A DNA stretch of 35,160 nt from a virus: positions 1 through 35,160 of IMG/VR virus record IMGVR_UViG_3300005577_000063; one strand, 5' to 3'. Shown in pieces: positions 1,464 to 23,824 of this stretch. How positions within the stretch are numbered: position 1 is the stretch's first letter; each line of letters begins with the position of its first letter. The notes beneath the pieces are model-generated. The model had not been told where the DNA came from. It searched no databases and saw nothing but the letters and a program-made list of their open reading frames with translations. A program made the position numbers and the translations under genes.

Positions 1464-2302
1464 TGGTAGGACGCAATCGTGCGCTTGAGGCCATCCTCGA
1501 GCGGCAGGAAGTCATCGGGGAACCAACCTAAGGGCCGTAGGGTGGTCGGATCACCCAGGACGATGGAGTGCTCTGCCTCGCCCGGACGCATAGGGGCATG
1601 CTCGATGGTTCCCTCACCCATAAGCTCTACGACTGCCTCAGCGAGTTGGTTGACCGTGGTCTTACGGCCCGTGCCAGCATCCATAACCGATTCGTAGACG
1701 CCGTGATCGCGCTCAAGGGCCCTGACGAGGATCTCAGCCACGTCTTCGACCCAGATCATATCCATGATCTGCTCACCGTCGCCGTAGATGACGATGGGTC
1801 GGCCCTCTAGGACGGGGATGATGAGGTTCGGCATGATTTTCTTGACGGGATAGGCCTTCTGCCTGGGCCCGTAGACGTTCAAGCCGCGGATAAGAGCGAT
1901 CTTGGTACCCCATTCCTTGTTCGCCATCAGGGCGAAGCGTTCTGCAGCCTTCTTGGTGATCGAGTAGGGGTTCCACATCCAATGATTCGCTGCGGCGATA
2001 TTCACCGCCGGGACTTCATAGCGGCGGATCGCTTTGAACACGTTCAATCCACCGAGGATATTGGTCTCGATGGCGGGGAGGGGGTCGTCTACCGTCTCCT
2101 GGGTTCCCAGGACACCGGCTAGGTGCATCACAGCATCTGAGGTGCTCACCGCGAGATCGATAGCCGATGCATCTCTGATATCACCGAGGATGTCGCACTC
2201 CCGAGTCACACCGAAGGTGATCGGTTCATGCCCGTGGTCTTGCAATGCCTCGCAGGTGTACTTACCGATGAACCCTGTTCCGCCGGTAACGAGAACCCGC
2301 AC
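1460..2302 (-). CDS. NAD(P)-dependent sugar epimerase/dehydratase (extended SDR)
   Basis: A 280-residue extended short-chain dehydrogenase with the nucleotide-binding GGTGFIG at residues 7-13, HLAG, and Tyr-x3-Lys in PYSITKK. C-terminal RPGEAEHSIVLGD resembles NDP-sugar epimerases, whose usual role is to interconvert activated sugars. Oddly, the catalytic Ser/Thr strand is NIAAAN and the spacing to Tyr is short, so activity may be altered. The start is GTG at 2302, directly after the TGA of the CmcI-like frame, with AAGGAGG 6 bases upstream. It probably supplies or modifies the sugar for the two downstream transferases (inference). Confidence 0.8.
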   Translation of the reverse strand: MRVLVTGGTGFIGKYTCEALQDHGHEPITFGVTRECDILGDIRDASAIDLAVSTSDAVMHLAGVLGTQETVDDPLPAIETNILGGLNVFKAIRRYEVPAVNIAAANHWMWNPYSITKKAAERFALMANKEWGTKIALIRGLNVYGPRQKAYPVKKIMPNLIIPVLEGRPIVIYGDGEQIMDMIWVEDVAEILVRALERDHGVYESVMDAGTGRKTTVNQLAEAVVELMGEGTIEHAPMRPGEAEHSIVLGDPTTLRPLGWFPDDFLPLEDGLKRTIASYH

Positions 2303-2920
2303 TCATATCCTCCTTAGCCATCCGCCGGGATTCATCCCGAGCATGAAGCGTTCATATGTCCGGTCTGGGGAGAAGTGGTTATCGCGTTCTAGGAATCGCT
2401 CCACGGCTACGCCGGGGCCACCATTAGGGTAGAACTCCGAATCGATCCCGTACACATCTACCGCGGTGTCTTCGACCACCAGGTAAGAACTAGGCGTTAC
2501 CAGTGGGGCATACGCCTCTAGTTCGGCCTCCACATGGAGAGCATCGTGGTCCGAATCTAGGGTAACGAGGCAACTCCGGCCCCCGACTAGCTCATACACC
2601 CGAGCAATAACATCCGGGTCTGTGCTCGAGCCAGTGATCCAATGGACCCGCTCGTCCCGCCTCTCTGGCTGTACGGGGTCGATGCTGACTACCTCGCCGT
2701 AGTCCGCGAACCATGCGGCCGAGCCGCCTTCTGCACTGCCCGTCTCTACGATGACTGCGGGCTGAACCCTCTCAAGGAGTTCCTTGTAGGCCCACAGATC
2801 TGTTGGGTACTTGACGATACATCGACCTTCTGAGTCAAAGATCGTCTGCCAGACACGTGATGCATAGAAGGCCCTATTGGCGTCAGGCCACAGACCCTTT
2901 AGCGCGTCTCTTTTGGGGTC
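2303..2920 (-). CDS. CmcI/rhamnosyl O-methyltransferase-family protein, no start codon of its own
   Basis: The open frame encodes about 200 residues that look complete for the cephalosporin hydroxylase/sugar O-methyltransferase family (CmcI, PF04989): KYPTDLWAYKELL, then the SAM-site-like VETGSAEGGSAAW, GSSTD, TLDSDHDALHV, VVEDT and a C-terminal NPGGWLRR. The frame is closed by TGA at 2921-2923 and has no ATG, GTG or TTG before the conserved domain; the first GTG (2599) would lose half of it. The upstream 58-residue gene overlaps in the other frame and carries a C CCA AAA heptamer (2911-2917) whose -1 slip enters exactly this frame. Fusion by programmed frameshift is the simplest reading; a CTG start at 2891-2893 or an assembly indel are alternatives. 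Confidence 0.75.
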   Translation of the reverse strand, partial: DPKRDALKGLWPDANRAFYASRVWQTIFDSEGRCIVKYPTDLWAYKELLERVQPAVIVETGSAEGGSAAWFADYGEVVSIDPVQPERRDERVHWITGSSTDPDVIARVYELVGGRSCLVTLDSDHDALHVEAELEAYAPLVTPSSYLVVEDTAVDVYGIDSEFYPNGGPGVAVERFLERDNHFSPDRTYERFMLGMNPGGWLRRI

Positions 2921-3075
2921 TCAGCCTTCTCGGCCCGCTTGGCCGGCGCGGCTGGCTTCCAGCCCTTCCACTTCAGTTGAGCCCTCACACCGTTCGCGTT
3001 TACCTCGTCCCCCATCGCTTCATACGCTGCGAGCTCCCGCAGCAGCGCCTCGATAATGGTTTCGTCGTCTGGCAT
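2899..3075 (-). CDS. Small head-region protein, 58 aa
   Basis: MPDDETIIEALLRELAAYEA begins a short acidic helix, followed by a basic/aromatic stretch (RAQLKWKGWKP) and an Ala/Pro/Lys-rich tail. Start at ATG 3075 with AAGGAGAG just upstream. It directly follows the major capsid gene and its stable hairpin. Similar small proteins follow capsid genes in actinobacteriophages, but I cannot assign a function. The flexible tail reads like a linker, consistent with its being the N-terminal part of a frameshifted fusion to the CmcI-like domain. Confidence 0.75.
   Translation of the reverse strand: MPDDETIIEALLRELAAYEAMGDEVNANGVRAQLKWKGWKPAAPAKRAEKAETPKETR
2911..2917 (-). other. Candidate -1 ribosomal frameshift site (C CCA AAA)
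   Basis: On the minus strand, codons ACC CCA AAA of the 58-residue gene contain the canonical X_XXY_YYZ heptamer C_CCA_AAA. Slipping back one base gives CCC AAA and then AGA GAC GCG, the frame of the CmcI-like protein. Product: 55 residues of the small protein plus 202 of the CmcI-like domain, about 257 in all. The zero frame stops three codons after the heptamer. I did not identify a convincing downstream pseudoknot. The same genome has a second well-placed -1 heptamer in its tail chaperone genes. Confidence 0.55.
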
Positions 3076-6427: not shown

Positions 6428-7890
6428 CAGAGCGCCCAATAACTCGTGGGCTCTAACTGAGCGCTGGCCTGATGGACCGCGAGCGCTAGGGCGATGAGTG
6501 CTCTTGTCTGTTCGGTAGCCACCAAGCGCCACCCCTGTTCTGTCTCTTTGGTCTGGCCGGCGAGCACTTCACGCCTCAGGGCTTCATCACCGTCATGGAC
6601 GATCAAACCCGCCGAAATGAGCCTCCAGAGCGTTGCGGTGGCCTCTGCGTACCGAATCGGGGTCTGTGGGGCCTCCATCATCGGGATTCCGGCCTGTTGG
6701 AGGATCTCGGCCGACCGCATGAAGTATTTGGGGTCGTAGAGCACAGACTCGACCTTGTACCGCTCAGTAAGCCGACGGATCGACCACTCGAGCCCCTCGA
6801 ACGACAATCGGCCCTGTTCGGGAGCGGGGATGATCTCAGCCCCTACCGCGATCCTGCCGTCATCTCGAGGTGATGCGATGCCGATTCCGGCCCCAGCACC
6901 CACCCGAATGGCCAAATAGACCCTATCTCCGTCCCTTAGACCCCCAACATCGGCCCTCAGGCCGTCCCAGGTCTCGGCCTCAAGCCATGATTCGAGCGAG
7001 GCGGGCATCCCACAGACGAACCGCCGCCAGTGGCCCGGTGTCATCGCTGGGGACGATTTCTTCCGTTTCAGGGTCTCGATAGTGATGGCTTTGAGCGGAT
7101 TTGCGGCCTTGACTTCCTTCAGATTGTCCGGATTGCCGCTCTCAGGCACCGCGTATTCATGGAGCACCGAGTTGGGGCCAAGCGCTCTGAGGAACGACCC
7201 CTTGCGGGTTACGGTCCCCGTGTCCCGCATGGTCCGTCTCAGGGCCTCGAACTCCCCATCGGGCTCACCGGCCGTCGAAATGGAGATCAGCTGCCCTCCG
7301 CGCTTCTCTAACTTGCCCCGCCAGGTCCGATAGAGGTTCAGATTCCGGTGTCTGTGGAGCTCCTCGAGGATGGCGAGGGTGGGGATAACGCCGTCACCGG
7401 TTCTGTCATCAGCAGCGAAGATTTGGGCCCTAGAACCGGATTTCTCGCACTTGATCCGGCGATATCCCTCCTGGCACTTGAACTGCTTGAGCTCAGAACG
7501 GTCCACGAACCCAGCTGCGGCCTGATAGAGCCATTCCGCCTGGTCCCTCGAGGAAGCTGCCACGACCACTCTGGCGTATTCCATGAACTCGAGGTGGTAG
7601 AGGAGCAGTCCCCCGACGAAAGTGGTCTTGGCGTTCCCTTCGGGGATGACCAAGAGGGATTCTGAGATCCCGGAGAACACGTCAGCGAGGAATCGGGCCT
7701 GGAATGTCTCGATTTCCCAGGGTTCGCCGTTATCCAGGAACAGCCCCTTGGCCCAGACCCTGAAATGCGGAACCGTGAAGGGCTGATGGGTTTTTCTCGC
7801 CGCGCCGGCTGGGCTTGGTCTTGCTGAGTGATCGTGCCCCTCGACCACCCCCCCTTGATCCAAAATATTCTTTTCGATTGTCTTAGCCAC
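6427..7890 (-). CDS. Terminase large subunit
   Basis: The DNA-packaging ATPase/nuclease, 487 residues from GTG 7890 (a GTG at 7971 is possible but would overlap the HNH gene by 89 bases). The P-loop is IPEGNAKTT (about residues 82-90), an atypical Walker A common in phage terminases; Walker B is AILEELHRH (about 173-181), Glu-Glu rather than Asp-Glu. The C-terminal nuclease domain keeps VLYDPKYF, but the usual first-strand Asp position reads VYLAIRVGAG and the late Asp before ALALAV reads EQTRALIALAL. No separate small terminase was recognised; the adjacent HNH gene may assist packaging. Confidence 0.93.
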   Translation of the reverse strand: MAKTIEKNILDQGGVVEGHDHSARPSPAGAARKTHQPFTVPHFRVWAKGLFLDNGEPWEIETFQARFLADVFSGISESLLVIPEGNAKTTFVGGLLLYHLEFMEYARVVVAASSRDQAEWLYQAAAGFVDRSELKQFKCQEGYRRIKCEKSGSRAQIFAADDRTGDGVIPTLAILEELHRHRNLNLYRTWRGKLEKRGGQLISISTAGEPDGEFEALRRTMRDTGTVTRKGSFLRALGPNSVLHEYAVPESGNPDNLKEVKAANPLKAITIETLKRKKSSPAMTPGHWRRFVCGMPASLESWLEAETWDGLRADVGGLRDGDRVYLAIRVGAGAGIGIASPRDDGRIAVGAEIIPAPEQGRLSFEGLEWSIRRLTERYKVESVLYDPKYFMRSAEILQQAGIPMMEAPQTPIRYAEATATLWRLISAGLIVHDGDEALRREVLAGQTKETEQGWRLVATEQTRALIALALAVHQASAQLEPTSYWAL

Positions 7891-8245
7891 GTCTAACTCT
7901 GTTGCGTCCACCCTTGGCGATGTTGTGTCTCTCACAGAGGACTTGTGCGTTCTCATCTGTTGCTCGACCACCTAGTGAGAGTGGGTGTATGTAGTCCACC
8001 TGTAGTGGGCCATGGCACCCACCCATGTGGGCATAGACGCACCTCGAGGTGGGAGTGACCATGCGGTGCCTCCTCTGCTGGTGTGCATAACCATGCTGAT
8101 CCTTGTAGTGGGCACGGGCAGGGGTAGTGGGGTGCCTACCCCTAGGGCAGTGAGGGGCATGAGGCATGGTGGGTATGGGCCTACCGCATGTGATGCATGC
8201 CCTGGGCATGAGGGTGGGGGCATAGGGGCTACGCTGCGATGTCAT
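7883..8245 (-). CDS. HNH endonuclease-like protein beside terminase
   Basis: A 120-residue protein with a CITCGRPI zinc knuckle near residue 18 and an HNH block, VDYIHPLSLGG...NAQVLCERHN. HNH proteins immediately upstream of terminase are known in HK97-like phages, where they stimulate terminase cleavage. The position usually held by the first catalytic His (DH) is Tyr here, with a His two residues on, so nuclease activity is uncertain. The ATG at 8245 has GGTAAGGGTGAAGG upstream and overlaps the preceding gene by 17 bases. The middle section is His/Arg/Pro-rich and of low complexity. Confidence 0.8.
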   Translation of the reverse strand: MTSQRSPYAPTLMPRACITCGRPIPTMPHAPHCPRGRHPTTPARAHYKDQHGYAHQQRRHRMVTPTSRCVYAHMGGCHGPLQVDYIHPLSLGGRATDENAQVLCERHNIAKGGRNRVRRG

Positions 8246-11000: not shown

Positions 11001-11360
11001 CTAGGGGGCCTGGAAGAAGCCGGTGTCATCTAACACAATCTCCCCCGGTGTGCTCTCGTCCCTGAAGATCAAGAAGGCGCGGCATGTACCTTCGGCCACG
11101 GTGCCAAACCACAGCACCCATACCGTGTCGTCCATGACATAGAAGCCGTTGCGCTCGATCTCCTCGCCGTAGTACGTCGGGTTGCCTTGTGCATCCCAAC
11201 ACCGTGTGGAGACCCAGACATGATCCCGTCTACCGATGTGGCTTGTTGTGGCTGTGAAGGTGACTGGGGTGGTGCTTGTCAGCGTCAGGTCGCCCTGTGG
11301 CTGGGGAGCGGCTGCGAGGAGCAACGGGACGATCAGCAAGAGAGCCAGGGACCGCCGCAT
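11001..11360 (-). CDS. Secreted protein with Sec-type signal peptide
   Basis: A 119-residue protein. MRRSLALLLIVPLLLAAAPQ is a clear signal peptide: two Arg, a 14-residue Leu/Ala core, and an AAA-type cleavage site near residue 18. The mature part (about 100 residues) is beta-rich with two Cys (STRCWDAQG and EGTCRAF) that could form a disulfide outside the cytoplasm. The ATG at 11360 overlaps the upstream stop as TGATG; longer in-frame extension upstream is shadow of the neighbouring gene. Third cargo-like gene of the tatA operon. Function unknown; host-envelope modification or superinfection exclusion are conceivable. Confidence 0.8.
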   Translation of the reverse strand: MRRSLALLLIVPLLLAAAPQPQGDLTLTSTTPVTFTATTSHIGRRDHVWVSTRCWDAQGNPTYYGEEIERNGFYVMDDTVWVLWFGTVAEGTCRAFLIFRDESTPGEIVLDDTGFFQAP

Positions 11361-11791
11361 CACTCGCCAACCACGCCTTGGCATTTCGCGTTGCCGGTTC
11401 CGATGTCCGGTTTGTAGACCTGGACCGTGAATGAGCCCGGGGTGGCGACATAGCCGCTGATCGGGTCGAACGGATCCCAGAACTCGTAGTAGCCGGGGAG
11501 CATTCCATCCGATGCCCACCAGCGCGGCAGCGTTGTGACCCCATGACCAGTCGCGTCTAGTGGGCCAATCCCAGCATTCGGGTGAGCCCCATTCGACGGG
11601 TCTCCAACCCAGTTGACCTTCACCCAGTATGTTGCGCCCGGAACGCCGTTGAACACCTCGAAACTCCACGTCCCACCCGCATTCAACGCGGCAGCAGAGA
11701 TAGGCTGATTGACCTGGCAAGAAGTATTGGCGGCATGCGCCGAGGGCATTAGGGACAGGGCAAACAGAAATGCGGCGATTGCTGATTTCAG
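11360..11791 (-). CDS. Secreted protein, probable CTG start
   Basis: From CTG at 11791 the protein has 143 residues and a good signal peptide: Lys-Ser, then a hydrophobic AIAAFLFALSLMP core, and SAHA before the mature AANTSC. The first ATG (11749) falls inside that signal peptide and has no ribosome site, whereas the CTG has AAGGAG six bases upstream. The mature domain (about 123 residues) is beta-rich with a Trp-rich centre and two Cys near its ends, suggesting a disulfide-closed Ig-like fold. It overlaps the next secreted-protein gene by one base. Confidence 0.78.
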   Translation of the reverse strand: MKSAIAAFLFALSLMPSAHAANTSCQVNQPISAAALNAGGTWSFEVFNGVPGATYWVKVNWVGDPSNGAHPNAGIGPLDATGHGVTTLPRWWASDGMLPGYYEFWDPFDPISGYVATPGSFTVQVYKPDIGTGNAKCQGVVGE

Positions 11792-11801
11792 ACCGATCTC
11801 C

Positions 11802-12011
11802 TTAGAACAGCAGCAGGAGCCGCCTTGTGGCTGGGCTCTCAGTGGGCGGGGGTGGTGTCGGTGTGGGTGTAGGCGTAGGGCTAGGGCACCAGTTGGGATT
11901 GTTCGGGTTGAGCTCCCAACAGGGCTTAGGGGCGGCAGCCAGGAGTGGCAAGGATGCTGCTATGGCCCCGATACCGAAGAACTGGCGGCGGGTGTATCTA
12001 CTCGCTGTCAT
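11802..12011 (-). CDS. Small protein with twin-arginine (Tat) signal peptide
   Basis: A 69-residue protein beginning MTASRYTRRQFFGIGAIAAS. TRRQFFG matches the twin-arginine consensus (S/T-R-R-x-F), followed by a hydrophobic core and an AAA site near residue 27. The mature part is only about 42 residues: a Cys-x10-Cys segment (CWELNPNNPNWC), a Pro/Thr repeat tail, and a C-terminal RRLLLLF. Its ATG lies 14 bases inside the tatA gene, so it is translationally coupled to TatA. This pairing makes it the obvious intended cargo. Such a small Tat substrate is unusual; function unknown. Confidence 0.78.
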   Translation of the reverse strand: MTASRYTRRQFFGIGAIAASLPLLAAAPKPCWELNPNNPNWCPSPTPTPTPTPPPPTESPATRRLLLLF

Positions 12012-12135
12012 CCTCGAGACCGCGCTTAAACTCAGCCCTTGAACGGCCTACCCCACGGGCTAGTTCTGGGAGCTTCTTAGCCCCGAAGACCAGGACTAGA
12101 AACGCGATGATGCCGACGATGATCCACTCGTTCAT
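11998..12135 (-). CDS. tatA: TatA-family protein, twin-arginine translocase subunit homologue
   Basis: A 45-residue protein with the complete TatA signature: short periplasmic N-terminus (MNEW), one membrane helix (IIVGIIAFLVLVFG), the conserved Phe-Gly hinge at residues 17-18, then the amphipathic helix GAKKLPELARGVGRSRAEF and a charged tail. TatA oligomers form the translocation element of the Tat system with TatBC, which must come from the host because neither is encoded here. The ATG at 12135 has GGAG eight bases upstream; a longer upstream extension lacks sense. It is shorter than bacterial TatA (usually 60-90). A host-derived, pared-down copy is the likely origin (inference). Confidence 0.9.
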   Translation of the reverse strand: MNEWIIVGIIAFLVLVFGAKKLPELARGVGRSRAEFKRGLEDDSE

Positions 12136-12181
12136 GGGGTTCACTCCGGGATTTGAGACAAAGCGGCTACCCGCCGGGGCC

Positions 12182-12210
12182 ATCGTACATACGTTCGAGT
12201 AACCTGTCAA
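12182..12210 (-). promoter_or_regulatory. Near-consensus promoter of the tatA operon
   Basis: On the minus strand, TTGACA (12210-12205, six of six consensus bases), a 17-base spacer and TACGAT (12187-12182, fits TANNNT). The -35 overlaps the TGA of the upstream gene. Expected start of transcription is near 12175, giving a roughly 40-base leader before the tatA ribosome site. No other minus-strand gap in the genome shows a perfect -35, so this module is probably expressed independently of the rest of the operon. Confidence 0.75.
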
Positions 12211-13142: not shown

Positions 13143-13446
13143 TGCGATCCCTCTTTTCATGAGCCCGGGCTGCTAGGGCATCGAACCTCTCGTCACCGAT
13201 CTCCGACCGCCAGAAGGCCTCTTTCTCCCAAGGATGGGAGTCTAGGAATTGGTGGCAGCCATAACATAGGGCTAGGGCGTTGTCAGGATCGAATCTCGTT
13301 GCCCCGGTGCGTCTGGTGAAGTGATGAGCGGAGTGGAGCCCCCCGGGCTTGGGTTCGGAATGACACCGCTTGCATCTGTAACCGTCGCGCTTCCTAATCT
13401 GGTCTGAGAATCGAGCATCGGCGGCGGTGCGCTTGATGCCACTCAT
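13129..13446 (-). CDS. HNH-type zinc nuclease-like protein
   Basis: A 105-residue protein with CKRCHSEP (zinc), then LHSAHHFTRRTG, FDPDNALALCYGCHQFLDSHP: the His-His, Asn and Cys-x2-Cys-His layout of beta-beta-alpha metal nucleases used in phage recombination and DNA processing (NinG-like or free-standing HNH). ATG at 13446 overlaps the stop of the cytosine methyltransferase by 4 bases, so the two are coupled. Homing, recombination or junction processing are all possible. Confidence 0.78.
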   Translation of the reverse strand: MSGIKRTAADARFSDQIRKRDGYRCKRCHSEPKPGGLHSAHHFTRRTGATRFDPDNALALCYGCHQFLDSHPWEKEAFWRSEIGDERFDALAARAHEKRDRSGAS

Positions 13447-14081
13447 GCCACCCTCGCTAGGTGTTCTAGCAACTGCTCTCCGACAAACTGGCTATAGGCG
13501 GGGGGAATCGCTTCGGCGATCTCATCGCCCGTCATCCAGTCGATGCCCATGGCTGCTTTCCACCTTGGATCTGTCATCCCGGTAATCCCATCGCGCCGCT
13601 TGCTCTTAGTGTTGTATGGATTCAGCGGATGGGGCACCAGATCGTGGCGGCAGGGCGGGGACATGATCAGGGGCACGGTCTCGAAATAGCGGTGCCGCCA
13701 TATCGGCAGACCGAATGAGGAACCACACAGCATCCCCCCCGTGAGGGGGGCGCCCTTCACGTTCTCGATCACATAGGGCAGGCCCGTTGCCTTGAGCAGG
13801 GCGCGAATCGGTTCTATCAACCTGTCCGATGGGCGAGCTCGATGCCTGAGATGTGGGCTGTACGCCTGGCACGGCGGTGAGGCGTGGATGGCGTCGTATC
13901 GACCATCCCTCCAACGCAACCTCATCAACTCCAGCGCATCTGCCATCACGAACTCGAATGGGTAGTGAGGCTGCGGCTTGATATCCACGCCGACCACATC
14001 GAACCCTGCTCGGTGATAGCCCATAGCTGCACCGCCGGCACCGCAGAACAGATCAAGCAGGAGCGGCCTAACGGCCGTCAT
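13443..14081 (-). CDS. DNA (cytosine-5) methyltransferase
   Basis: 212 residues from ATG 14081, which overlaps the preceding microprotein stop as ATGA and has GGAAGG upstream. Motif I is DLFCGAGGAAMGYHRAGF, the catalytic motif IV is SPPCQAYS, motif VI is ENVKGAP, and a late IPPAYSQFVGEQL resembles motif X. It transfers methyl from SAM to C5 of cytosine. It is small, with little target-recognition domain, as common in phage enzymes. No partner restriction enzyme is seen, so protection against host restriction or epigenetic control is likelier than a restriction system. Confidence 0.9.
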   Translation of the reverse strand: MTAVRPLLLDLFCGAGGAAMGYHRAGFDVVGVDIKPQPHYPFEFVMADALELMRLRWRDGRYDAIHASPPCQAYSPHLRHRARPSDRLIEPIRALLKATGLPYVIENVKGAPLTGGMLCGSSFGLPIWRHRYFETVPLIMSPPCRHDLVPHPLNPYNTKSKRRDGITGMTDPRWKAAMGIDWMTGDEIAEAIPPAYSQFVGEQLLEHLARVA

Positions 14082-14170
14082 CGTAGGGCCTTCCGTCTGC
14101 GCCGCCGTGCTAAGACATTGTGTGGCCTCCAGCGCCAGTTCAGCCACCACGTGTACCAGGTCTGGGTCAC
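14078..14170 (-). CDS. Tryptophan/arginine-rich microprotein, 30 aa
   Basis: From GTG 14170 to TGA at 14078: a 30-residue peptide with a WYTWWLNWRWRPHN core and a run of five Arg near the C-terminus. It fits exactly between its neighbours, overlapping the upstream stop as GTGA and the methyltransferase start as ATGA, the signature of a translated link in this operon. Five Trp and about nine basic residues give a cationic amphipathic peptide that could bind membranes or nucleic acids. No family known to me. Confidence 0.6.
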   Translation of the reverse strand: MTQTWYTWWLNWRWRPHNVLARRRRRKALR

Positions 14171-14478
14171 CTTACGTCCACCGGGGTAGGCACTACAGCC
14201 TCGAGCTTCTGATATCTATTCTCGAACTCACGGCCACGTAGCTGGGTGCTCTTGAGATTGATATCAAGTGGGTCATCACGCACGATCTCCAACCATCGTT
14301 CGACCCGGGCTCGTTCCCATTCGATGGGGTGATTGTGTTTGAGCTTGCCCGTGATGCTCCCCCCTCGTTCTTCAGCCATTCGGGCGCATGCCCTGCACCA
14401 TCCGTTGTTGGGTACGCGGCCTACCTCTTCGGTGTCGTGGCCTCGCTTGCAGATGCGTTCCCTTGGGCGTCCAGTCAT
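14167..14478 (-). CDS. Hypothetical zinc-knuckle protein
   Basis: 103 residues from ATG 14478 (4-base overlap with the upstream stop). The N-terminus has RICKRGHDTEE...WCRACARM, the C-x2-GH...C-x2-C knuckle often found at the start of phage HNH proteins, but no HNH block follows; instead there is a basic/helical stretch (KLKHNHPIEWERARVERWLEIVR). Probably nucleic-acid binding. It may be a degenerated HNH protein. Confidence 0.7.
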   Translation of the reverse strand: MTGRPRERICKRGHDTEEVGRVPNNGWCRACARMAEERGGSITGKLKHNHPIEWERARVERWLEIVRDDPLDINLKSTQLRGREFENRYQKLEAVVPTPVDVR

Positions 14479-14900
14479 GCGCAACTCCACGCCGACCAGC
14501 TGCCCGAGTAGTGAACCATCCTAGCCGTCGTCACGATTTGAGAACGACTGTTCGTCCATCTCCGCCACGGGCCTACCTTCCAGGCGTCCGGTACCTGATG
14601 TGTCACCCGTTCCGGCCAGTACATCGCCGAGTGTTGAAACAGGCCAAGGTACTGCCCGTCGTTGTCTGCGAACCGATACCAGTTGCTCTCGCACGCAGCG
14701 ACCGCAGAGAACTCCTCGATCCCACCAGGAACCGACCACTTCTGCACCACACACCTGGCAGTTCGTCGTTCTTCTCGGTCGGTCCAGACCTGATGGTCGA
14801 GGCTCTGGAATCGGCATTGGTTCTCCTGTCGTTCAGTCAGAGCTTGGGATGGTGTCGGGATTAGGGTCATACACATGGCTATGAGTAGGTACCTCAGCAT
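14475..14900 (-). CDS. Secreted lytic transglycosylase/lysozyme-like protein
   Basis: 141 residues from ATG 14900 (GTG at 14906 also possible). MLRYLLIAMCMTLIPTPSQA is a signal peptide; the mature domain has FSAVAACESNWYRFADNDGQYLGLFQHS, matching the catalytic Glu (CES) and Gly-Leu-Phe-Gln of lysozyme-like/SLT folds, which cut the glycan strand of peptidoglycan. It lies with early accessory genes, far from the holin, so a role in host wall modification during infection is as likely as lysis. Its start overlaps the upstream gene by about 68 bases, unusually long here. Confidence 0.78.
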   Translation of the reverse strand: MLRYLLIAMCMTLIPTPSQALTERQENQCRFQSLDHQVWTDREERRTARCVVQKWSVPGGIEEFSAVAACESNWYRFADNDGQYLGLFQHSAMYWPERVTHQVPDAWKVGPWRRWTNSRSQIVTTARMVHYSGSWSAWSCA

Positions 14901-15051
14901 TCCCACCTGACCTTTCTCGGACTAGAACGCGACCACACTCATGTATGAACGCACGGCCCTCTCGAGCAGCCTTCGCTGCCTCAACACCGTCAAAGGGCTT
15001 GGCGCATGTACCGCACACCGGCCTGGGTGTCGGTACTTTCTTCTTTGCCAT
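14833..15051 (-). CDS. Zinc-ribbon-like small protein
   Basis: 72 residues from ATG 15051 with GGGAGG six bases upstream (a GTG two codons earlier is less likely). MAKKKVPTPRPVCGTCAKPF carries Cys-x2-Cys, followed by FIHECGRVLV with His and Cys that could complete a zinc site. The C-terminal 25 residues are His/Pro/Asp-rich and overlap the next gene's signal peptide region. Function unknown. Confidence 0.7.
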   Translation of the reverse strand: MAKKKVPTPRPVCGTCAKPFDGVEAAKAAREGRAFIHECGRVLVRERSGGNAEVPTHSHVYDPNPDTIPSSD

Positions 15052-17148: not shown

Positions 17149-17445
17149 CTAGCACCGACTCACAAGCTCGTTGAAGGTGTCGATGGCCTGGTCATAGTCC
17201 GGATACTCAGACATGAACCCCTGAACGAAGGCATCCCGACTGGCGTCCACGCCGAGCTCGTCCACGTAGCCACAGAACTCAGCCACGGTGCCGGGGTGCA
17301 GGGCCTCGTAGGTGTCCACGAAGCTCCCTGACTCGCTGCTCCCCCCCACGTTCTCAATCGGGGTGGTGGTCGGTGCATCGGTGGAACTACCGCAGGCCGT
17401 GAGGATCACGGCGACAGCGGCTAGAGCAATCAGTGCCTTCTTCAT
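17149..17445 (-). CDS. Phage-encoded lipoprotein
   Basis: 98 residues. MKKALIALAAVAVILTACGS is a lipoprotein signal peptide with lipobox LTAC (Cys at 18), so the mature protein should be lipid-anchored outside the membrane. The mature domain starts with a Ser/Thr-rich tether, then an acidic helical domain with Cys at FCGYVDE and a C-terminal SRC, probably a disulfide. GGGAGGG upstream. Lipoproteins of several phages block superinfection by binding receptors or injection machinery; that role is an inference here. Confidence 0.85.
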   Translation of the reverse strand: MKKALIALAAVAVILTACGSSTDAPTTTPIENVGGSSESGSFVDTYEALHPGTVAEFCGYVDELGVDASRDAFVQGFMSEYPDYDQAIDTFNELVSRC

Positions 17446-20013: not shown

Positions 20014-20664
20014 TCAGCGCCCCGAGCGCTCTATCTCGGCATTGGCGAGCGCAACCAACTCCCGCCCTATGATTCCGTGCACGTTATGAGCTATCGTGCC
20101 CGGGGCACTCTCAAATCCGATATTGATATGAGAGTCACCCGCAATAGGGAACACCTTGAACTTCACGCTTTGGCCGGGTCGCCAGATGACAACGACGCTA
20201 GCGAAGAACCCCGAAGCCCGATAAGGCCCATCCGTAAGGAAGCGCACTCGCCCCCGGATGTATCGAACCTCGGCATGTCCGACAACATCATCGTGCCACC
20301 ATGCGAGGTCGGTAGAAGCGGGCAGCAGACCAACTACTAATGCCCCACGCTCTGCTGATTCACGGGCCTTCCGGGTCCATGCATAAACCTCGCGCCCATA
20401 TGGCGGGTTCATAAACACTCGTTCGTCGTACCAATCCTGTTCGAGGCCGTTATCCTGTTCGGTGTAGTAGTTAGCAACACCGAGCGGGTTATCCGCGGTT
20501 GTACATGGGTCTAGCGTGAACTGGAACTCCTCGTTCAGGGGGTCAAACACCTCGGGTGGAGTGCGCCACTCCCGACCCTTACCGTTGTAGCGCCCGTTGT
20601 TCTTAGCTTTCATGCCACCGAGTACCGCAGGGTTGTCACTCGCCCCTATCGTCCGGCGATTCAC
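20014..20664 (-). CDS. DNA N6-adenine methyltransferase (phage Dam-like)
   Basis: 216 residues matching the phage Dam family (PF05869 type): EWRTPPEVFDPLNEEFQFTLDPCT, the NPPYGR catalytic motif at about residues 87-92, LVVGLLPASTDLAWWHDDV, and VRYIRGRVRF. It methylates adenine N6 with SAM. A sensible role is protection from host restriction. ATG 20664 overlaps the upstream stop by 4 bases. Confidence 0.9.
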   Translation of the reverse strand: MNRRTIGASDNPAVLGGMKAKNNGRYNGKGREWRTPPEVFDPLNEEFQFTLDPCTTADNPLGVANYYTEQDNGLEQDWYDERVFMNPPYGREVYAWTRKARESAERGALVVGLLPASTDLAWWHDDVVGHAEVRYIRGRVRFLTDGPYRASGFFASVVVIWRPGQSVKFKVFPIAGDSHINIGFESAPGTIAHNVHGIIGRELVALANAEIERSGR

Positions 20665-22822: not shown

Positions 22823-23028
22823 CACGCGTCGGCATCCTCACCCTCGGCCTCAGCCTCGGCACGTTCGGCGTCCTGGACGATCTCCCTAGCCTGGTCGAGT
22901 AAGGCGAGAACCTCCCACCCCTCGAGATCCCCGCAGTTGACCTCGATGGAGTCACCGACCGTCCAGGAGATCGTGACGATGTAGGGCGTGTAGTTCGGGG
23001 CTTGGTCAGCAAAGGGCTGGGTCGTCAT
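22822..23028 (-). CDS. Hypothetical acidic protein, 68 aa
   Basis: MTTQPFADQAPNYTPYIVTI begins a 68-residue protein: a strand-rich half with ISWTVGDSIEVNCGDLEG, then a very acidic helix (ALLDQAREIVQDAERAEAEAEGEDADA). ATG 23028 overlaps the upstream stop by 4 bases. Function unknown. Confidence 0.7.
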   Translation of the reverse strand: MTTQPFADQAPNYTPYIVTISWTVGDSIEVNCGDLEGWEVLALLDQAREIVQDAERAEAEAEGEDADA

Positions 23029-23393
23029 CCGCCGATAGCCTTTACGACGAGTGCTCCCCCGACAGCGGAGAGCAGCGAGACCAGCGCACCGAACCCCAGG
23101 GCCTTACCTCGGAAGTTCTCAAGGGCATCCACCTTGTCCTCAAGGGCCCCGTGCTGGCTCTCATATCGATCCCTGGTAAGGAAGTTCGAGCGGTCCTGGG
23201 TAACCTCTGCCCTCAGTTCGTTCAGCTTCTCTAGCCTGAGTTCGAGGTTCCGGGTAGCGAGTTCGAGCGCGGCTTGCTGAGACCTGAACGCCGCCGTGAG
23301 TGCCTTATCCCTCTCGGCCATGATGGCTTCGATGTATTCCCTGAGGGTGACGGTGGTGCCGTTGCGTTCATGGACGGGGCTCTCCTCGTTCAT
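23025..23393 (-). CDS. Coiled-coil protein with C-terminal membrane anchor
   Basis: 122 residues from ATG 23393 (4-base overlap with the peptidase). LREYIEAIMAERDKALTAAFRSQQAALELATRNLELRLEKLNELRAEV is a long coiled coil; LGFGALVSLLSAVGGALVVKA is a single C-terminal transmembrane helix. This XhlA-like topology occurs beside holins and lysins, so a lysis-accessory role is plausible. Confidence 0.75.
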   Translation of the reverse strand: MNEESPVHERNGTTVTLREYIEAIMAERDKALTAAFRSQQAALELATRNLELRLEKLNELRAEVTQDRSNFLTRDRYESQHGALEDKVDALENFRGKALGFGALVSLLSAVGGALVVKAIGG

Positions 23394-23824
23394 CCACTCA
23401 CCACATACGAGGTGTGCCAAGGCTCGCCCGGGACGGCGTAATGCCAGCCCTCCAAGAGCAGGGCTTTCTTGATGGCGTAACGTCGGGCGGCGCTCTGCCC
23501 CATGTCGATATCGACAGCCAGTCCCCGGCAGTGCTTGGACCCGTCCGGGTTGGCATAGCGCTGGGGGTCGGACTTCCAGAGTTGTCGCTGTAGCTCACAG
23601 TCCCGCCAGCCGATCCCCGTGATGAGGATATGGCGGGTCTTCCCCCTGATCTTCATCCGCTTGGGGGTGATGCGCTGCTCAGCGGCCTTGAACGCACGGA
23701 GCGCCGGCCCCTGGAGCTTGACGATCCGGGAGTCCGTCTGGTGGTAGATGTTGATGTTGTCGTAGTCATCGCAGCATGAACCACCGTCGTGGATGACCCC
23801 GTAATGGGTCTGGATATCGGTCAC
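23390..23824 (-). CDS. M15-type peptidase, probable endolysin
   Basis: 144 residues, GTG 23824 with GGAGG upstream. Catalytic zinc motifs of the D-Ala-D-Ala carboxypeptidase/M15 family: SKHCRGLAVDID (His-x6-Asp) at about residues 96-107 and EPWHTSYV at the end. It would cut peptide cross-links of the wall. It has no signal peptide and no separate wall-binding domain, so it would rely on the holin. It heads a possible lysis transcript with its own promoter. Confidence 0.85.
   Translation of the reverse strand: MTDIQTHYGVIHDGGSCCDDYDNINIYHQTDSRIVKLQGPALRAFKAAEQRITPKRMKIRGKTRHILITGIGWRDCELQRQLWKSDPQRYANPDGSKHCRGLAVDIDMGQSAARRYAIKKALLLEGWHYAVPGEPWHTSYVVSG

Follow-up and report, generated by a model that had tools for sequence, protein, structure and literature searches.

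A near-minimal TatA-type protein paired with a predicted Tat substrate in a phage genome in which TatC was not found

Results

The locus comprises a tatA gene encoding a 45-residue TatA-type protein (positions 11998–12135), an overlapping gene for a 69-residue protein with a twin-arginine signal (P0003; 11802–12011), two further genes for exported proteins (11360–11794 and 11001–11363) and a promoter-like sequence ahead of them (12182–12210), all on the minus strand. These features lie in a window of 35,160 bases, by which we mean the whole stretch of DNA analyzed, an IMG/VR virus record of a soil-type phage whose recognised genes are all on that strand. Because the first and last 120 bases of the window are identical, forming exact 120-bp terminal repeats, it most likely represents a complete phage genome of ~35,040 bp, circularly permuted or terminally redundant. 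Phage genes for terminase, portal, head protease, major capsid and tape-measure proteins were recognised and, together with the terminal repeats, place tatA within the phage rather than in adjoining host sequence. A 12.6-kb IMG/VR contig (L011/L094) was 100% identical to the window across the 8.7 kb compared. As the earlier note on this sequence had proposed, this is a phage gene without a partner TatC: none was found in the complete genome. Searches of the window for a tyrosine or serine integrase found neither. The window also carries two DNA methyltransferases, one C5-type and one Dam-type, at 13443–14150 and 20014–20664 (minus strand), within a single 35-kb phage. Methyltransferase and terminase similarities to Mycobacterium and Streptomyces phages, and the second rank, for the window TatA, of PRK00575, which we take to be an actinobacterial TatA model, hint only weakly that the host may belong to the Actinobacteria. 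Host assignment by tatA homology failed because the sequence is too short, with the nearest bacterial matches spread across phyla.

The tatA translation, MNEWIIVGIIAFLVLVFGAKKLPELARGVGRSRAEFKRGLEDDSE, comprises a transmembrane (TM) helix, an FG hinge, an amphipathic helix, an FK motif and an acidic end. The earlier note had read this frame as TatA-type and had suggested a profile search with a Phe-Gly alignment; both supported the assignment, with a Pfam TatA_B_E (PF02416) score of 48.4 bits (E 5.4e-13; curated cut-off 21 bits) and with F17-G18 aligned to bacterial TatA. Against the NCBIfam tatAE model TIGR01411 the protein scored 52.3 bits, 1.6 under the cut-off of 53.9, and we therefore name it a TatA-type protein within PF02416, not a certified member of the TatA/E subfamily. 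Its designation as TatA rather than TatB follows from the F17-G18 hinge and from this TIGR01411 score, compared with only 18.1 bits for the TatB model TIGR01410. Solved TatA structures were the top sequence matches, the nearest being TatA chain 9e07_F (E 5e-8), and a PHROG search returned weak matches only (E 0.007).

Alignment with bacterial TatA located essential-type residues at F17, G18, K20/K21, G30, F36-K37 and E41-D42-D43, and the segment from the hinge to the FK motif contained no indels. Compared with the list of residues essential for TatA in section 7 of PMC9527704, the window protein has the Phe that closes the TM helix, the hinge Gly, basic residues at the start of the amphipathic helix, a central Gly, an FK motif and an acidic end. 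In the account of Lee et al. 2002 given in PMC13186574 and PMC9527704, the tail of TatA past the acidic patch is dispensable and truncated E. coli TatA is functional; the window TatA terminates just past this patch, where a dispensable tail would begin. Judged by its residues, it is a natural near-minimal TatA that keeps nearly all those reported as essential. The more sweeping claim that every TatA landmark is present held for the FG hinge and the amphipathic helix and was slightly overstated at the N-terminus, where 3 residues precede the helix compared with 8–10 in TatA, and at the hydrophobic helix itself, which spans 14 residues (W4–F17, after E3) compared with 12. The polar residue E3, corresponding to the TatC-contacting position, is shifted by two positions. 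The hydrophobic moment of the amphipathic helix was 0.545, compared with 0.420 for E. coli TatA, and 3.7% of shuffled sequences reached 0.545. With the L-shaped two-helix fold of TatA as the reference, AlphaFold2 predicted a single continuous helix over residues 2–44 (pLDDT 88, pTM 0.41), a model that is uninformative on the hinge in a membrane.

We assign the tatA start to the ATG at 12135, because a GGAG Shine-Dalgarno sequence (12144–12147, minus strand) lies 8 nt upstream and because L012, a diverged sister phage, has a stop 5 codons before the same ATG. The same stop rules out a 70-residue form of TatA beginning at a TTG. The 11998–12210 span originally given for the gene thus takes in the longer TTG-start frame and the promoter, and only 11998–12135 stands as the gene itself. 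The promoter described in the earlier note, TTGACA-N17-TACGAT, is present at 12182–12210 (minus strand), ending 46 nt upstream of the ATG; the consensus scan matched it at 10 of 12 positions, a match not above chance when taken alone (1 found vs 3.3 expected). An equivalent site occupies the same position in L012, where the -35 element is conserved and the -10 reads TCTAAT (TTGACA-N17-TCTAAT), and a similar TTGACT-N17-TACGGT precedes the corresponding cassette in a further relative, L164.

Directly downstream of the promoter lies a conserved leader, CCGCTTTGTCT (12156–12166, minus strand). It is built as a short GC hairpin followed by CCGNTTTGTCT, and it stands ahead of the first, or first exported, cassette gene in four related phages whose cassette genes differ (window 12156–12166, minus strand; L012 ~8037–8048; L163 1105–1113 and 1139–1149; L164 ~6460–6470). 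In three of the four (window, L012 and L164) the cassette is headed by a TTGAC[AT]-N17 promoter-like sequence with CTCGAAC in or beside the spacer. The leader is possibly a regulatory or attenuator element.

Coupling of tatA to a twin-arginine gene, likewise proposed before, was confirmed: the start of the cargo gene overlaps the end of tatA by 14 nt. The cargo protein combines a YTRRQFFGI signal, a Cys pair (APKPCWE.NPN.PNWCPS) and a Pro-Thr linker. Its twin-arginine motif reads T-R-R-Q-F-F (TRRQFFGIG) and is followed by an uncharged hydrophobic stretch (h-region mean hydropathy 2.05) and then by a basic, Sec-avoiding K29, as expected of Tat substrates; on these signal features we predict that the protein is a Tat substrate and is exported. 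A signal peptidase site is hard to place, with a Pro after the Ala run. Being small and mostly Pro-Thr, the protein is an odd Tat substrate, and it may represent the signal and spacer module of a modular secreted protein minus its enzyme part. The cargo was found in the IMG/VR scan only in the window's own sequence (L011/L121) and in L012, and no match was obtained in INPHARED.

The tatA-cargo pair, which the earlier note had suggested looking for in related contigs, recurs in L012, where promoter, tatA and cargo keep the same order and the cargo begins ~12 nt past the tatA stop. The L012 tatA (8073–8207) scores 48.2 bits against Pfam TatA_B_E, and protein identity between the two phages is 93% for TatA and 70% for the cargo. 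In the cargo, the YTRRQFFGI block is identical, the twin-Arg, K29, both Cys (C31 and C42) and the C-terminal LLLLF are invariant, and the Pro-Thr linker is kept. Conservation of the tatA frame, another of the checks proposed earlier, was evident over 42 aligned codons, with 5 synonymous changes in 31.6 sites and 2 non-synonymous changes in 94.4 sites (dN/dS ~0.12). By our own arithmetic, the chance of at most 2 non-synonymous changes among 7 in the absence of selection is ~0.013, and the frame shows a purifying pattern. Synonymous divergence was markedly lower for tatA (dS 0.18) than for the adjacent cargo gene (dS 1.14), which may reflect local exchange or constraint at the DNA level.

The second exported protein of the cassette (11360–11794, minus strand; upstream end approximate) carries a Sec-type signal, KSAIAAFLFALSLMPSAHA, and had no match in Pfam or PHROG. 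We prefer a CTG start for this gene, since AAGGAG-N6-CTG occurs in both the window and L012; the L012 gene also has a similar signal peptide, and its mature part differs. A +1 frameshift from the cargo into gene 2 (window 11720–11805, minus strand; L012 8400–8470) was considered and rejected; both phages keep that frame open, and the CTG start is the simpler solution. The third gene (11001–11363, minus strand; start approximate) was identified as an open reading frame with a MRRSLALLLIVPLLLAAAPQ signal, which reads MRR(S/F)LALLL across the window and L012; at this position L012 encodes a DUF1996 protein (PF09362, 150.9 bits).

The relatives L163 and L164 share with the window an upstream 151-residue gene and have, at the same position, other exported proteins and no tatA. 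The L163 cassette holds a GIY-YIG gene and, after it, genes for a DUF1996 protein and for an M11-like metalloprotease; that of L164 encodes a beta-helix protein. We found no tatA in the other sampled relatives, which had been identified through their terminase and many of whose contigs are fragments. Since a similar promoter and leader precede other exported proteins in the relatives, tatA is an optional lead gene in a variable cassette for secreted proteins that has a promoter of its own, an arrangement the earlier note had missed. The cassette is a moron-like island adjoining tail-like genes. As a separate observation, the L163 metalloprotease (1930–3039) starts, after its signal, with APKCGVPHKPPCPTTTPPP, which resembles APKPCWELNPNNPNWCPSPTPTP of the window cargo (11802–12011).

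To survey other phages, 2.9 million IMG/VR contigs were scanned with the pattern FG[APST]KKLPEL, which covers only FG.KKLPEL variants. Four contigs carried tatA, namely the window's own sequence (L011), L012, and two longer contigs, G011 (78.7 kb) and G029 (100.9 kb); pattern matches in L129, L131 and L132 were not TatA frames. Both longer contigs come from phages unrelated to that of the window: a capsid protein and a prohead protease are encoded by G011, and a terminase, a portal and a capsid protein by G029. TatA is thereby present in three separate phage lineages (window/L012, G011 and G029). Their TatAs score above both the Pfam and the tatAE cut-offs, and no TatC was found in either contig. 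G011 encodes two tandem paralogous Tat-signal proteins of 205 and 189 residues (L136 6997–8220), of no known family, whose twin-arginine signals (ISRRGLLSSGLSMAGVVAAFG and TTRRGALGKFAGLAGIAALASSG) are clear. Inspection of G029 gave no convincing Tat cargo. Hit counts from a simple Tat-motif scan did not separate tatA-positive from tatA-negative contigs, and the counts gave no statistical enrichment of Tat signals in the tatA-positive phages. Because that scan also scores tatA-negative contigs, the association of TatA with cargo, which comes from inspecting a few cases, is suggestive and not statistical.

Among 50,697 INPHARED phage records, we found no genuine phage TatA, and the matches inspected were misfiled bacterial DNA. 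These came from Listeria, Staphylococcus and Salmonella 'phages' and from one fecal scaffold, with tatC adjoining tatA in those opened; the Salmonella matches were annotated as, or resembled, chromosomal TatE. The records OR846728, OR849886 and MT837480 contain bacterial tatA-tatC pairs, that is, host DNA filed as phage. A literature search returned no account of any Tat subunit encoded by a phage, and the matches for TatA and phage that were opened concerned TATA boxes or motifs. The TatA family itself is established; what the literature searched did not contain is a tail-less TatA that is carried by a phage, paired with a Tat cargo and without TatC.

Discussion

We favor a reading, to which we assign a probability of about 0.58, in which the phage carries an accessory TatA that joins the host TatC or TatBC and helps to export phage cargo. 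The 45-residue protein would insert into the host membrane with its N-terminus out and C-terminus in, associate with the host's TatC or TatBC, assuming that the host has TatC, and enlarge the TatA pool at translocation sites upon expression of the cassette. Export of the small cargo with its Cys loop and Pro-Thr segment, and perhaps of further Tat substrates, could then proceed despite a limiting or ill-matched host TatA, and the cassette would probably change the infected host's surface or surroundings in a moron-like manner. Such an export role requires a host TatC because a phage TatA without TatC cannot form a translocase alone, as deduced from the Tat biochemistry reviewed in PMC13186574 and PMC9527704. 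In favor of an accessory subunit are the near-complete set of essential residues, the overlapping cargo kept in L012, the purifying pattern and the missing TatC, as well as G011, with its TatA, two Tat-signal proteins and no TatC, and the relatives, in which the promoter and leader head exported genes. Against it stand the 14-residue helix, the 3-residue N-terminus, the shifted polar residue, the odd cargo and the lack of a convincing cargo in G029. More broadly, and tentatively, since we consider it somewhat doubtful, the minimal tail-less TatAs of several phage lineages could be portable adaptors for any host TatC that favor twin-arginine export of phage proteins.

The case of G029, whose TatA is small, complete and above the NCBIfam cut-off but is accompanied by no visible Tat cargo, would fit a general modulation of the host, in which overall Tat capacity or the integrity of the envelope is raised or restored by phage TatA during infection and the neighboring gene encodes only a co-inherited secreted protein; that every tatA phage is without TatC fits as well. 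We regard this as unlikely, given that the overlapping or adjacent tatA-cargo pair is retained in two diverged sister phages and that G011 has two Tat-signal proteins. Somewhat less probable again is a Tat poison, a variant that enters host TatA/TatBC and blocks or retargets it for host takeover or superinfection exclusion. Poisoning is conceivable because the deviations from bacterial TatA fall exactly in the N-terminal and TM part that touches TatC and governs membrane thinning, but the listed essential residues of the hinge and amphipathic helix are all intact, and a blocker would hurt export of the phage's own neighboring twin-arginine cargo. Both poisoning and lysis are less likely than an accessory subunit.

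A lysis or membrane-thinning factor, that is, a one-helix, holin-like small protein exploiting the hydrophobic mismatch of TatA, had been raised in the earlier note as an alternative and has lost ground to the point of being improbable. It draws on the topology of TatA, which is like that of the small holin TpeE, whose TM segment has 14 residues as in the window TatA (PMC9527704), and on G011, where tatA and a CHAP endolysin-like gene are ~1.2 kb apart. TpeE, however, shares no sequence with TatA, and the window protein keeps TatA-specific residues. The window moreover has a separate lysis-like pair at 23.0–23.8 kb, formed by a probable endolysin, a VanY-like peptidase (23390–23824, minus strand; PF02557 E 0.002, below the cut-off), and an adjoining holin-like protein with one C-terminal TM segment (23025–23420, minus strand; hydropathy scan, no family match). 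With this pair (23025–23824) sitting together, lysis by TatA is unlikely; tatA is 11 kb away, outside the lysis cassette and within the cassette of exported proteins, and is not the sole membrane lysis candidate. We give equally little credence to a passenger, a captured host gene fragment without current function. In the other sampled relatives identified through their terminase, incomplete contigs included, tatA was not found, and its low DNA divergence relative to its neighbor could indicate recent exchange; yet promoter, start, order and protein are conserved, the changes run 5 synonymous to 2 non-synonymous, and TatA occurs in three separate phage lineages.

Returning to an accessory TatA, the phage protein resembles bacterial TatA/TatE (PF02416; TIGR01411) in its N-terminal TM segment, FG hinge, KKLPELAR amphipathic helix, central Gly, FK motif and acidic end, and differs in being 45 residues long and tail-less, in its 3-residue N-terminus and 14-residue helix, and in a genome without TatC. 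In Bacillus subtilis phoD-tatAd-tatCd, Tat subunits are co-transcribed with a substrate. Here too, tatA adjoins the gene of a twin-arginine substrate in one unit, whereas the phage unit is without tatC, so that the host's would be needed, places TatA before the cargo, and has a 69-residue peptide as cargo and not an enzyme. The cassette shares with phage morons, or lysogenic-conversion genes, its own promoter and variable exported proteins beside structural genes; it differs in containing a Tat subunit, and no integrase was found in the window. We are aware of no moron that encodes a Tat subunit, and the literature searched yielded none. Relative to the truncated functional E. coli TatA in the account of Lee et al. 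2002 cited above, the phage protein ends similarly near the start of the dispensable tail but is natural, phage-encoded and altered at its N-terminus. The one-helix holins TpeE and BhlA likewise have a short TM segment (14 residues) followed by an amphipathic helix, but they have no sequence similarity to TatA (PMC9527704), TpeE is without a conserved flexible hinge residue, and the window phage has another lysis-like module.

These data suggest that a phage adjusts the export machine of its host to serve the proteins that the phage itself secretes and, if TatA is functional, that a virus tunes folded-protein export through one exchangeable part. Were the portable-adaptor idea true, a mobile subunit would retune the host's folded-protein exporter. 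A TatA this close to minimal, occurring naturally with a changed N-terminus and helix length and paired with a cargo, would also serve as a probe of the requirements for TatC contact and for a 12-residue helix.

Other predicted exported products are encoded elsewhere in the window. At 17149–17445 (minus strand) lies a predicted phage-encoded lipoprotein (MKKALIALAAVAVILTACGSS) with no family match. The product of 14475–14906 (minus strand), an exported protein with a VAACESNW...GLFQ motif and no match in Pfam or PHROG, is possibly a secreted lysozyme/transglycosylase-like enzyme.
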